Source: Styela clava (taxonomy: Eukaryota; Chordata; Ascidiacea; Stolidobranchia; Styelidae). Taken from it: 64,000 nt of DNA. The DNA is taken from NCBI RefSeq assembly GCF_964204865.1, contig NC_135261.1, positions 1,054,001-1,118,000 of the forward strand, written 5' to 3'. Of this stretch, positions 1,335 to 56,800 are shown piece after piece (the first letter of the stretch is position 1; the number at the start of each line of letters is the position of its first letter). Made by a program: the position numbers and the translations under genes. Under the pieces are notes generated by a model. It did not search any database. It was given only the letters and a program-made list of their open reading frames with translations, and was not told the DNA's origin.

Positions 1335-1342
1335 ATCTAAAC

Positions 1343-3445
1343 CAGTGGTTCCCAAACTTTTTTGACCATCGCCCCCCTAAAGTAGTTTATACAACTTCAT
1401 CGCCCCCCTGCACTACAAAAAAATATAAAGTCAGAAACGAATTTATTACAGACCAAATAAGAAGACAAATCATAGTTTATAGTGTTTTTTAATGAGATAG
1501 ATGAGCTTGGTGTTCTTCAGCGAGGTTTTTATTATATCTAAAATTACCCCATTTACTGATGGAAAGGTGATTTTATTGTTCTAATAGCAATAGTAGCACG
1601 GCTGAAAACCTCTTTTTCACCATATAATAGGTCGGAAATGAAAGAATCCAGGGTCCTACCTCCTCAAAAACCGCCGTGTACTCTTGCCTTATAGCATTTC
1701 ACTTCCTAAATTCACCCCATTTCACATTAAAATAATAAGAACAAAAATAATTTTCCCAAACTTATAATAATGATTTTCGTACATTTCATTCATTCGTACA
1801 GCCTGATGACCTGCACCAAAATACTTCGAAAAAGTCCATCCCCGATTCCTCATCCTATCGCGGCCTCCAGTCCATAATTACCCAGCCATTTGTTTTGGAT
1901 TCATGGACTCGGATGTGGAAGAAGCCGTGACTGACTATCGGCTACGGCCCAGGGGTCGGTAAATTTTATGTCGCTCGCAGGACAAAATTCAGGATTGCTA
2001 GTCTTTTGCGGGTAGCATATATTTTTTGAGAGTTAAAAACGGAACACACGCGAAAACTGCGACAATCGTGAACTCAACTCAGTCGTCTTATTAAAAAAAT
2101 ATTACAATAACATTTAATGTGACACTGTCTTGTTGCTGCATCGCGCTGGATAGCTTTACGACGCCAAGATTGAAAAAATTTCTAAATGGGCATCACCAAA
2201 CCCACTTCTTTGCTTGTTCTTTGTAATGTGCATTTTCGAAAATAATGGTTTGCACAAATATGTACTTCCAAACATCGAAGTGAATATTTTCGCACGATTT
2301 GTGAAATTTTGATAAATATATATTTTCTTTAAGAAGATACATTCTTACAAAAATCAAGCAGTGATGAATCTCCCGAATATGAATATGAATTTTATTTCCT
2401 TATTACTTTGCAATATATTCGAATATTTACTGCGCTATTGAACCCCTGCACTCAGCATCAACTTTTCTGCGTGTTTCCATTTGTCTAATTATAATTAAAT
2501 TGTAGGCTCGTTAAACGAGTGGCTGTTCACTAAATTGTTAGGATATAGTATAATTTACTCTAAACGTGTCTCACGATAAATTCTGTTACGTAAAAAAATG
2601 TAATTTACTCCTCGAGCGTAGATTATAAATAAAAAATTTTCATCGTCAAACCCGCCGTTTGGATATTTCCCCGGGCATAGACTTCCCTGTTTACTTCGTG
2701 ACATTGGCCAATCAGCAAGATGCAAAAAACGTAACAATGCCCCCTTTCGCAGGCGCTCAGACACTCTCACTCGGACAGATTTTCAGGGGTGGTCGTGAGC
2801 ACTACCTCATTTTCGCGTTTTTGAATTATATTCGTTAGTATTTAGTTGTTTTTCGGGAATTTGAATATAAATCAAATAAGTCAATGATTACTTTGTCTTT
2901 CTATGAGTTTCAGTTTAAATACAGCAATCAAAAATTAGTGTAGAAATAGCTATGATAGACTAGGCTAAAATTCTTTATCGGTACTTTTAAAAAACAGATT
3001 GTTAAATGGTGTGTATTAGAATGATAGTTTGAATCAAATACCCCATTTTACAGGCCACAGCTCGCGAAACCACTCTTAAAATAAGCACCGAAAATTTTAA
3101 AATGGTAAAGTATGGAAAGAATTTTCCGCGGTCAAAGGTCGGGGAAAGGTCCATTCAGTGAATGGTCCCGGGCCAGATTATTTTACTTCGGCAGTATTTT
3201 GCCGACCACTGGGATACGCAAACTACCTTACCTTACTGCAAAGACGAGACCAGAAATTCTTTCGCGTGTGAATATCGCCCACATGTTTCAAGCCTGCGAA
3301 TGCACACAGAGTACAGAATTAAGAGCGCCGAACATAAAACAGCTTTCGCGAAATCGCCCCCCTATCGCCCCCTTAGACTTTTTCGCCCCCCTCTGTATCG
3401 TTTTCGCCCACTGGGGGGCGATATCGCCCACTTTGGGAATCACTG
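1343..3445. mobile_element. Non-autonomous hAT element, about 2.1 kb
   Basis: The left end reads CAGTGGTTCCCAAAC and the right end, reverse-complemented, reads CAGTGATTCCCAAAG. The flanks are an identical 8-bp direct repeat, ATCTAAAC (1335-1342 and 3446-3453), the target-site length of hAT transposons. Both ends carry sequence rich in 'ATCGCCCCC'. No transposase is encoded; the open frames inside are short and look like chance. A tRNA-SINE fragment lies at about 1895-1950, so the element has been invaded or has captured older repeats. The TSD has TA in the middle, the Buster-type pattern. Confidence 0.9.
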
Positions 3446-53800: not shown

Positions 53801-56800
53801 GCTGCGATAGACTAACCCAGAGGTTTCCAAATCAGGGGTTGCGGCCCCAAATTGGGTCGGAGTGATAAGTAGGAGGATGGATGTACAACACATCTAAGAT
53901 TTGACAAACCATGTTAAATTTAGCAGTTTGGCATACTGTAAAACAGGCCCATAGGCATTGCTTTATGCTTATGTTATGGAAAATGTAGGTGATTATTGTG
54001 ACATCACTGTTTGATTTCAGCGTATTTTACTTAATACCACCACAAGACCAAACTCAAAAGTCCGGTGAAAGAAGCTCTAAAGCTCCATGAAAAATATATA
54101 TATTGACCCGGGGTTGCACTGGGGGTCGTCCTGAAAAAAGCTTGCAAACCCCTGGACTAACCTAAAATTAGCTACCAATACCTATAGGCATTTGGTTTAT
54201 TGTTTTGAATTTTGAATAAAAATATTATTGAAAATGTGAGCCAGTTTGTTAGCGCTAACTCTTTAAAAATCAGAGTTGAAAATTTTGCTTTAATAAAGTA
54301 TAGGGAGAATCTTTCAGGGTCAAGAGTAGGGGAGACTGCCATTGACATAAAATGCTTCAATTCTTGTGTCATTCGGTATTTATTATCATGCAATTCTACA
54401 ATATAATTTTTTATAGTATGATGTTTTTCTGCACTTCTGTGGTCTCTGTAAATTTGCTCAGAGATCTTTCTCATATATTTATTAGTGCATGTCGTTAGTA
54501 TTAGTAGTGCATGTGACCTTATTTCTTATTATTTTCTTATAGAAACATAGTGGGTGGTAGCGTCGAATATTTGGTCATTGCTAAGGTGTGCGTCAGTGTA
54601 GGTATAATTTGGCAATACAGGAAGTATATGTGTCAGTGTGTATTGATTTAGTTAATTTGGTCGAAAATCTATTATTACACTCGTAAATTTGAATGTTCTG
54701 TGTTTCGTCTGACCAAAGTCTGATTTCTTCAGACAAATATAATTTATTCAAGTATGGCTATAATGACTATAGTGATTCAGTGATTTTATGCGCAGTTTAA
54801 ATTCCTTTTTTAATGATTTTTATTTTTGTTTTAAGGTTCAAGATCTGACATATATTACCTCACGAATTGGGAAATGTCGTGCGTGGCTACGTCTGACGTT
54901 AAATGACAGTGCAGTGACATCATACCTCACTTCCATTCTATCTAAAGACCAGAGGTCGATGCTCTCTCATTATTACGACTCTCATGCTTTATTTTTGGAC
55001 CAAGAACATGTAGGTTGAAATTTGTTTTTATGCATAAATTATGCTTCAAACTAGGGGGTTCCAAACCGCGGCCCCTCGGCCAATTATGGCCAGCGTAACG
55101 ATTTAATATGGCCCGTCAAACTATATGTTTTTACGTTTTTGTGTTCTCTAATTTCTAATTGTTACATCATTATTACTGTTTAAGCATGTGTATATTCGTC
55201 ACAATTCGATCAAACCAGTATCCCAATTTATACTGATATCGGCATTTTGTCCTCTTATCAGGCCTGCGAATATCTTTCCGCTTCTATTTTTCAATCAACT
55301 TTGGGAACAAAGTTTTAGACATGTAGCCACTAGGGCTGGGTAAATATCTGATCATTTTAGAATCAAATATTTTTTCGAATCTAACGAATCTCGAATACGT
55401 TAAAGATGCGTAGTTGTGATGACTGTTTTATTGTAATGAGTCTTCCAGCGACGTAAATTGGTAGAAACGCATTTTATCTATCACTCAGACAGTTTGCTGA
55501 GCGTTAATACACAGTAAGAAATATGTTTGATTTTGTGATGAGCTATTAACACAATCATTGATTCAGCAAATTGAATTATTTCAGGAACTGACTTAGAGCA
55601 AACTTGTAGAATGTTCATTTTGGCTTACTAGAAAAGCCTCTTTCTAAGCATAAGTAACAAACAACCTTCTAGTCTGTATCTACAGACCTTATATCTCTAT
55701 TTAATAAATTTTTCCCTGACTTGTGACCCCTGGTAAATTTTTGTTGATTAGCCTATGTTATGGAAGTAAATGAGGAAGTAGATGCTCGGGGAACAGCCAT
55801 TGTGTCTTGTTTGTTCAGGGTTATATTGCTTTGGTATTCCAATGGAACCGAATCAATAGTTGTATTGTTTACATTTGTTTGTATTGAGAATATGGTTGAA
55901 TGGGGATAAAATAGTCTTTGTTCAATTGCTTGTTATTTTGCATGGTGTTCTTTGTTATCTGTGTTTTGTCGAGTATAGAATTTTGGCTTGTAGGTTTTTG
56001 TATTGGGAAGTTAACAGTCGAGTTAGCACAGTGGTTTTTAACTGTTATGGTGAGATAGTTCTCAAACGGTGATGCGCACCCCTCATAGGGGGGCGTAGGC
56101 AAATTTTTGAGGGGGCGTGAAGCTACTTAAAAATAAAAATATTTATTAGATTTGATCTTGCTCGCCTTATTTTGGATATTTACATTTCAAAGCTTTCCAT
56201 TTATTTCATTATTTACGTTCCATTCACATATTTTCAACCTGTTTTTTCCATAAAACATACTTCCATCTGACTATCTGTTATCTGTAGCTTATTGTTAGCT
56301 AGTTATTTTTGGAGTGGGGCGCGAGAATTCTAAAAAGTTTTAGAACCACTGGTGGCGTGGAACCGCAATGCAACAGTCCAGAGGATTGATATATCCAAGT
56401 GGATTAGTTACTAGTCTTTCGTTGTCTCAATTGTGTACAGTAAAAATAGAAATAAAAGCCAGCCTAATACTGGCAAAGAAAAGGATCAACGATTTGTTAA
56501 GTGTAGCAAGTTTAGTAATAGCGAGCATATACCATAATTATATATAATTTTGTGATCTTGTAACAAATTACTGTTTGTCTGTAATTTTACTTAGTTTTTC
56601 GTAACTTTGCTCAGGGATGAGTCATTCTTACTTTTGAGTGAGTGCCAGCAACTTTGCTCAGAGATGAGTCTCCTTTACTTCTGAACAGGTGCCCGTAACT
56701 TTGCTCAGAGTTGACAGTTGAGTCTTTTTTTTGCCACAGTGAAATGAATAAAAACTTGTGTTGCAAAAATTTGCTACATACAAAGTATTATGCCGACACT

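Follow-up and report, generated by a model that had tools for sequence, protein, structure and literature searches.

Target-site duplications of hAT-type MITEs in a Styela clava window point to a Buster-type transposase encoded elsewhere in the genome

The hAT-type MITEs in a 64,000-nt stretch of the Styela clava genome (NC_135261.1, positions 1,054,001 to 1,118,000, assembly GCF_964204865.1; the whole stretch is called the window) are very probably non-autonomous hAT elements that were moved by a Buster-type transposase encoded elsewhere in the genome, and not by the Tip-like element that resides in the same window. Their flanks are centred on TA, Buster-type coding stretches lie beside the same type of end with the same core of the target-site duplication (TSD), and TA is nearly absent there in the Tip-like and Ac-like elements of this genome. 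In the mechanism that we propose, a Buster-type hAT transposase coded elsewhere would bind the MITE ends (CAGKGGTKNNCAA), the MITEs would be excised and inserted into target DNA across an 8-bp stagger with TA in its middle (nTYTARAn), and repair of the gaps would create the 8-bp TSD. The element at 5097-8124 would have encoded a Tip-like transposase, with other ends and no preference for a central TA, which presumably did not move the MITEs. The result fits a known rule and is ordinary in kind, with Drosophila Mar as its precedent; the TA at the centre of a MITE TSD indicates a different transposase group from that of the hAT gene closest to it, a comparison with internal controls from a single genome.

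The window elements, all given on the plus strand, were checked by exact look-up, by a scan for TSDs with TIRs that was blind to TA, and by a scan of single ends. They show the features of the hAT superfamily, an 8-bp TSD and a short TIR starting with CA or TA. The original prediction listed eleven duplications, and it stands for eight that have two recognisable copies. Exact pairs flank the 2103-bp non-autonomous element at 1343..3445 (TIR CAGTGGTTCCCAAA / CAGTGATTCCCAAA; TSD ATCTAAAC at 1335-1342 and 3446-3453), whose first 22 bp are 91% matched to a Buster-type end (L141), and the MITEs at 11842..12370 (529 bp; TIR CAGTGGTTCTCAACC; GGACCGG repeats; CTCTATAG at 11834/12371), 32283..32581 (299 bp; TIR CAGGGTGGTCCAA; GGCCCGC repeats; CTTTAGGT at 32275/32582), 38748..39098 (351 bp; TIR CAGGGGTTCTCAACC; CCCTAAGT at 38740/39099) and 53818..54154 (337 bp; TIR CAGAGGTTTCCAA / CAGGGGTTTGCAA; GACTAACC at 53810/54155). 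The pair of the 289-bp MITE at 43270..43558 (TTCTACTC at 43262/43559), which carries TGGGTCGC repeats like those of published Buster1, comes from the exact look-up and was missed by the stricter TSD and TIR scan. Seven of eight bases agree in the pairs of the 1491-bp non-autonomous element at 20082..21572 (TIR CAGGGGTGGGCAA; GCATATTC|GCATATCC at 20074/21573) and the 362-bp MITE at 24650..25011 (TIR CAGGGGTGTGCAAC; CTTCAGTT|CTTTAGTT at 24642/25012). Two pairs are worn, that of the MITE at 21635..22558 (ends CAGGGGCGGGAAA ... CAGGGGTGGGCAAC; flanks TCATAGGC / CCCTAGGC, 6/8 identical) and that of the worn MITE at 8905..9234 (inverted repeat I23; flanks CTTTAAAC / CTTTAGGG, 5/8), whose ends resemble 24650-25011. 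The last is one-sided: the left hAT-like end CAGACACGGGCAAA at 38493..38520 has the flank GTTTAAAC at 38485, for which no exact partner was found nearby and none by a one-mismatch scan, nor was a right end found. No transposase was seen when the frames within the three longer window elements were read by eye.

The central TA that had been predicted for these duplications was confirmed: it occupies positions 4-5 on at least one side in 11/11, so that they read nnnTAnnn as in the Buster group, and the sole side read without it is CTTCAGTT. The TSD and TIR scan gave 14 matches, six of which were left out. Those at 62409 and 62413 are overlapping readings of one long inverted repeat, those at 1121, 13110 and 30028 look like chance pairs, and one reads the 24642 element again, this time to a duplicated end at 25584. 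The duplication CCCTAAGT, predicted as a MITE TSD, is present in both copies and is a single insertion copied along inside a piggyBac-like repeat, in which the MITE at 38748-39098 is a passenger. Since its four near-identical copies have one TSD and the same flanks, we rejected recent MITE activity as their explanation.

Single ends were then counted, a MITE-type end being defined by at least 10 of the 11 specified bases of CAGKGGTKNNCAA. TA stood at flank positions 4-5 in 21/29 such ends of the window, with any other offset at no more than 2 (window TA frequency 8.2%; binomial P = 4e-17, the two ends of one element not being independent), and in 25/37 ends from 236 kb of other loci. The family of 24650-25011, whose other scored matches are 70-89% identical to that MITE, has TA at 21/29 ends; of 20 copies fetched, 18 had an end that could be read, and 14 of these show TA. 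The family of 38748-39098 has it at 26/32, or 18/24 in a recount without the four passenger copies, which was used for the statistics. The perfect end CAGTGGTTCTCAACCTTTTT gave 248 matches genome-wide and its control 0; among the 100 listed, 70 had TA at 4-5 (52/81 distinct flanks), nine had CA and six TG. CA or TG thus makes up 15 of the 30 listed ends without TA, which may be due to decay or to genuine alternative sites. It can be argued that the TA only reflects an A+T-rich genome, the window being 63% A+T, or the choice of AT-rich 8-mers. This explanation is hardly credible, as TA is piled at one offset (21, 25, 21, 26 and 70 in the five end sets, against no more than 10 at each other offset) and as the Tip-like family of the same genome has it in 1/12. 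Flanks without a preference for a central TA had been named as a finding that would overturn the prediction; the family and genome-wide counts show TA.

The only hAT transposase that was recognised in the window (nine frames scanned) is the broken frame in 5097..8124, an element with the TIR CAGTGGCGGCGCGT, further copies at L031 and L032, and the TSD GAAAATTG on both sides (5089/8125). It carries DUF4371 and YDGAAVMSG. We take DUF4371 and YDGAA-x-MSG to be marks of the Tip group, and these features suggest that the element belongs to this third hAT group. As predicted, its duplication does not follow the Buster rule: of the 12 matched TSDs in its family (25 copies examined), only one has the central TA. 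The Ac rule nTnnnnAn does not describe them either (T2 in 3/12, A7 in 3/12, both in 1/12). One option is that the MITEs owe their movement to this element or to related ones, as the family has many copies, its CAGTGG start is common to the MITE TIR, and no other hAT transposase was recognised among the nine window frames scanned. We consider this very improbable in view of the missing TA and of TIRs that diverge from base 7: CAGTGGCGGCGCGT and CAGTGGTTCTCAACC have only their first six bases in common, so the match between MITE and resident TIRs that would have spoken against the prediction did not occur.

The Buster-type transposase that would explain the MITEs had been predicted to lie elsewhere in the genome, next to ends starting with CAGTGGTT or CAGGGGT, and the search supports this prediction. 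The pattern YLCE-x-GFS, which we take to be a Buster transposase motif, was found at 79 places genome-wide (control 0). Nine were opened, and eight have a MITE-type end just downstream (3' of the motif), with TA at 4-5 in 8/8 of these right-hand ends (L141-L146, L148 and L149, 3' parts read); no MITE-type end was found in the 3' part read of L147. Stops interrupt several of these coding stretches. Against the Buster reading, only 3 of the 11 window MITEs tested match one of the eight ends at E under 0.01. Any pairing of a Buster family with a single MITE is therefore putative; among the window MITEs, 11842-12370 gives the one fair match beyond the TIR (63 bp of the end of L145, 74.6% identity, E 9e-8). 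The putative group name of the enzyme is taken from the assumed motif, the TSDs and the published subterminal repeats in some MITEs. No Buster transposase was recovered with the Pfam hAT dimer model: 150/1852 candidates were scored, and the 20 weak ones that were opened all looked Ac-like or Tip-like by eye. On four Buster-type stretches this model gave 21.5 bits (cut-off 21.4), 16.9, 15.2 and no match, which suggests that it tends to overlook such proteins. Regular expressions for Buster motifs gave no match in the window or in loci L001-L096. In PDB searches one Ac-like protein led to Hermes, L036 matched Hermes weakly (E 0.005) and three Tip-like proteins gave weak unrelated chains only; no chain named TcBuster was among the matches of these proteins.

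Another explanation is that the MITEs were moved by Ac-group transposases with similar ends, such as those of L033 and L035 (CAGGGATGGCCAA; dimer domain and DUF659), whose TIRs resemble the MITE TIRs. Many MITE sites also agree with the Ac rule T2...A7, as did 18/29 sites of the 24650 family, 14 of them also with TA. However, the TSDs of L033 and L035 (GTATGGAC|CTATGGAC and ATCACAGG) and of ten other Ac-like elements have no central TA, and Buster-type stretches do adjoin MITE-type ends, which makes this explanation improbable. In the same-genome comparison TA occurs in 1/12 Tip-like and 0/10 Ac-like TSDs (Fisher P 7e-5 and 2e-5). The preferred reading, a Buster-type enzyme, gives sites of the form nTYTARAn, and many of them therefore fit the Ac rule as well. 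The division into Ac (nTnnnnAn) and Buster (nnnTAnnn) groups that the original prediction used needs two amendments: the two rules are not mutually exclusive here, and the literature recognises Tip as a third group. Tentatively, and with rather more doubt than confidence, the target can be described as layered: an Ac-like outer T2...A7, to which Buster adds a YTAR core (nTYTARAn), and an A/T-rich centre in Tip, CA-WWWW-TG, with both dropped. If so, the published Ac and Buster rules would be an addition and not alternatives, and Tip would gain a rule of its own.

Passages of PMC4298943 describe Buster1 and Buster2 elements and MITEs of planarian, insects and bats with the TIRs CAGGGCTTCTTAAACT and CAGGGGTGGCCAACCT, an insertion bias, and the subterminal repeats TGGGTCGCG and TGCGGCTC. 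The TIRs and insertion bias found here are alike, with a few bases of the TIRs different, and the repeats recur in three elements: TGGGTCGCG six times, exactly, in the MITE L016:31-924; TGCGGCTC three times, exactly, in L011:940-1669, both with the TSD GTATATAT; and TGGGTCGCG five times with at most one mismatch in 43270-43558. No clear excess was seen in 8/11 elements tested for these repeats, which are marks of those families and not of the whole group. Papers found by their literal TIR strings look unrelated, and passages of PMC10641963 and PMC11184336 added nothing to the comparison. The Mar MITEs of Drosophila willistoni, in the passages of PMC3517528 that concern them, have the TIR CAG(G/A)GGTAGGC and nnnTAnnn TSDs and were assigned to Buster; the remaining hAT elements there failed to match, and a full-length relic was placed within the Buster clade. 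Our case is similar in the assignment, the TSDs and the mismatch with other hAT elements; unlike Mar, eleven hAT-type MITEs or ends lie in one 64-kb window, and the coding stretches are known from the 79 motif places and not from clade placement. For TcBuster, according to passages of PMC3499496, the middle of the 8-bp site is TA in 26,871/27,985 insertions, followed by CA (394) and TG (373). Those are fresh insertions in human cells; the 100 listed ends of this genome are genomic insertions, with TA in 70, CA in nine and TG in six. Tip (Tip100, BuT2) is treated in passages of PMC3942097 as a third hAT group with 8-bp TSDs whose target preference was not investigated there, and it is this group that 5097-8124 resembles by the link assumed above. 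The 12 TSDs of one Tip-like family listed here address the gap named in those passages, a useful extra and a small body of data on the hAT branch that has been studied least.

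The eight-base target-site duplications (TSDs) of the hAT-like MITEs in the window, which was placed at C16:1054001-1118000 of the assembly (376.6 Mb, 379 contigs), were tested in three ways: by exact look-up, by a TA-blind scan for inverted repeats with flanking repeats, and by a single-end scan. Two recognisable copies exist at 8 of the 11 sites listed in the original prediction (2 of these 8 with one mismatch) and two more sites are worn, matching at 6/8 and 5/8 bases; for GTTTAAAC at 38485 neither the exact look-up nor the scans of the window found a partner copy. The same scan at duplications of 6, 7, 9 and 10 bp gave 1, 0, 3 and 0 matches, none hAT-like by eye. 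The prediction is right in substance. Beside the MITE at 24650-25011, its right end, the TSD CTTTAGTT and the following DNA recur, diverged, at about 25567-25640, and we read 25012-25640 as a local duplication of the MITE end plus its flank.

The central TA first noticed at these TSDs is real and is borne out beyond the window. TA stands at flank positions 4 and 5 in 21 of the 29 window ends resembling CAGKGGTKNNCAA, with other offsets at 2 or fewer each, and the same scan of 28 stretches from elsewhere in the genome (L009-L036; 236 kb, picked for hAT dimer domains) gives 25 of 37 distinct ends, with other offsets at 6 or fewer; some of the 12 ends without TA belong to Ac-like elements such as L033. 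For the 24650-25011 family, in which 40 of 860 candidates were scored and 20 of the 40 fetched, TA is found in 21/29 readable ends; an end could be read in 18 of the fetched copies, 14 of which have TA, and the remaining two had no readable end. The 38748-39098 family had 478 candidates, of which 40 were scored; in the 13 complete copies and 7 short terminal pieces fetched, TA is found in 26/32 ends, or 18/24 without four passenger copies. A genome-wide pattern, the perfect 20-base end CAGTGGTTCTCAACCTTTTT after eight bases of which the first was barred from G, has 248 matches vs 0 in the reversed control; among 100 of these matches listed, TA occurs in 70, CA in 9 and TG in 6, and among the distinct flanks of the matches listed TA occurs in 52 of 81, where, as in all the end counts, an element may contribute each of its two ends and duplicated copies may be counted too. 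In this genome-wide set, four identical flanks each precede the same TIR at C2:22.5-22.8 Mb (TTCTAGAA) and C1:32.2-32.5 Mb (ATATAGTG), and these are probably duplications, not separate insertions.

The outer bases of the flanks are also biased. The 70 TA flanks among the CAGTGGTTCTCAACCTTTTT matches listed have Y3 with R6 in 51 (background at TA 21%); T2, present in 51, and A7, present in 39, each have a background of 32%, and the 24650 family has T2 in 21/29 and A7 in 22/29. Because of these excesses nTYTARAn best describes the two genome-wide sets, and such Buster-type sites hold more than nnnTAnnn; the outer bases are weaker in the window's 21 TA ends (T2 in 7, A7 in 10). The Ac rule (nTnnnnAn) also fits 18/29 flanks of the 24650 family, and Hermes is described as favouring T2 and A7, in the part of PMC8721813 that concerns it. 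Ten Ac-like TSDs (L010, L013, L014, L016, L017, L024, L026, L027, L028 and L034; L027 classed by its TIR, the other nine also by motif) have TA in 0/10 and T2 or A7 in 9/10. Left out of this set were L033 (GTATGGAC|CTATGGAC) and L035 (ATCACAGG), which are also Ac-like and also without TA, and a TTTCGAAA match with a CACTG end in L011. The groups here are set apart by the central TA, not by the outer bases.

The resident element at 5097-8124 was expected to lie outside the Buster rule, and its family agrees. It has DUF4371 and a hAT dimer domain across a broken frame, with the motif YDGAAVMSG, which we take to be Tip-like; the copies L029-L032 have open frames of 635-730 codons. The 25 copies examined, with the window copy among them, divide into 12 whose TSDs match (one of them with a mismatch), 4 that keep both ends yet differ in their flanks, 8 with a single end and 1 with neither. 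The twelve TSDs (GAAAATTG, TATATATG, CAATTGAT, AATCACAA, CGGTTTTC, AATTTTCG, CAAAAAGC, ATAAAGTG, ACAACCTA, CTTTATTG, CGTATTTA and TTGCTAAA) have TA at positions 4 and 5 in 1/12, T2 and A7 in 3/12 each and A/T at both central bases in 9/12; with both strands pooled, the frequencies are C1 0.42, A2 0.54, T7 0.54 and G8 0.42. The relevant part of PMC3942097 says that the sites preferred by the Tip group had yet to be studied, and among the papers listed in a search, judged by title or abstract start, none fills this gap, which does not imply absence from print. In another stretch, L036 (C2:27058900-27063600), DUF4371 and a hAT dimer domain lie in an open frame of 903 codons, and a scan of that stretch found no TIR or TSD; it may have been domesticated as a gene, or it may be an element with ends outside the stretch. 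A hAT dimer match on C14 likewise has a 903-codon frame.

A Buster-like transposase encoded elsewhere in the genome had been proposed, and putative coding stretches of this type do exist. With the Pfam hAT dimer model 150 of 1852 candidates were scored, and those opened were Ac-like, with a DN-x-x-N type motif and Hermes as the nearest solved structure for one, or Tip-like; the links from motif to group are our assumption, as is YLCE-x-GFS as the motif of Buster-type proteins. A degenerate YLCE-x-GFS pattern has 79 genome places vs 0 in the control. Nine of these, picked to span six sequence types, were opened; all nine encode the motif, followed in most by something like IKTK-x-R-x-x-L, and several contain stops. 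A MITE-type end (9-11 of 11 bases) is present in 8 of the 9, its outer edge 310-342 bases past the motif start, and the eight bases beyond (CACTAGAC, GTTTAGAA, GTCTAGAT, TTCTAAGC, GTCTAAGG, GCCTAAAA, CTTTAGAT and TCCTAGAC) have TA at positions 4 and 5 in 8/8. The Pfam scores of four such stretches (21.5 bits at a cut-off of 21.4, 16.9, 15.2 and no match) fit their earlier miss by the hAT dimer model. The MITE at 11842-12370 matches the end of one locus, L145, over 63 bp (74.6%, E 9e-8), with CGGACCGGTAAA common to both, and when 16 MITEs or ends were set against the 8 Buster-type ends, 5 gave a match with E below 0.01. In the ninth locus, L147 (C5:23499734-23500530), no MITE-type end was found and the Buster-type stretch continues into Tip-type sequence; this may be a hAT copy formed by nesting or recombination, or the motif may occur there by chance.

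Published repeats were compared as well, Buster1 having TGGGTCGCG and Buster2 TGCGGCTC in the part of PMC4298943 that gives them. One MITE (L016:31-924; TIR CAGTGGTTCTTAAACT, TSD GTATATAT) has six exact copies of TGGGTCGCG, another (L011:940-1669, also with TSD GTATATAT) has three of TGCGGCTC, and the window MITE at 43270-43558 has five of TGGGTCGCG at up to 1 mismatch vs none in 200 shuffles; the other 8 of the 11 elements tested lack a clear excess. Overall this is a well-supported example of a phenomenon already known, and it closely resembles Mar in Drosophila (PMC3517528) and the TA rule of TcBuster (PMC3499496).

One MITE appears to travel as a passenger. Four further copies of 38748-39098 (L117-L120; 97-100% identity) all have CCCTAAGT and agree over a few bases beyond. 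About 500 bp more were read for three copies: C5 is 99.8% (left) and 100% (right) identical to the window, and longer flanks on one side each give 94.8% for C14 and 94.6% for C9. In the window the MITE has a short exon-like frame near 38247 on one side and piggyBac-type frames at 39264-40007 and 40152-40949 on the other, the second of these frames with a Pfam match (DDE_Tnp_1_7, 40152-40946). A single insertion, since copied along with the piggyBac-like repeat, is its most likely history; TTAA ends whose inverted repeats match were looked for in that repeat and not found. This repeat (38247-40949) holds two hAT-type insertions between the exon-like and main frames.

Other features of the window include 62333-63267, where long inverted repeats with 81- and 112-bp arms (97-99% complementary) surround a Mos1-type HTH fragment, either a mariner-like element or an inverted duplication. 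The recurrent inverted repeats at 3956-4117, 18171-18285, 31973-32233 and 52126-52284 have related-looking arms, several with GTACCAGGTTAG, and are perhaps another MITE-like family. A mitochondrial carrier protein frame lies at 45181-46233 on the minus strand, with three matched stretches.
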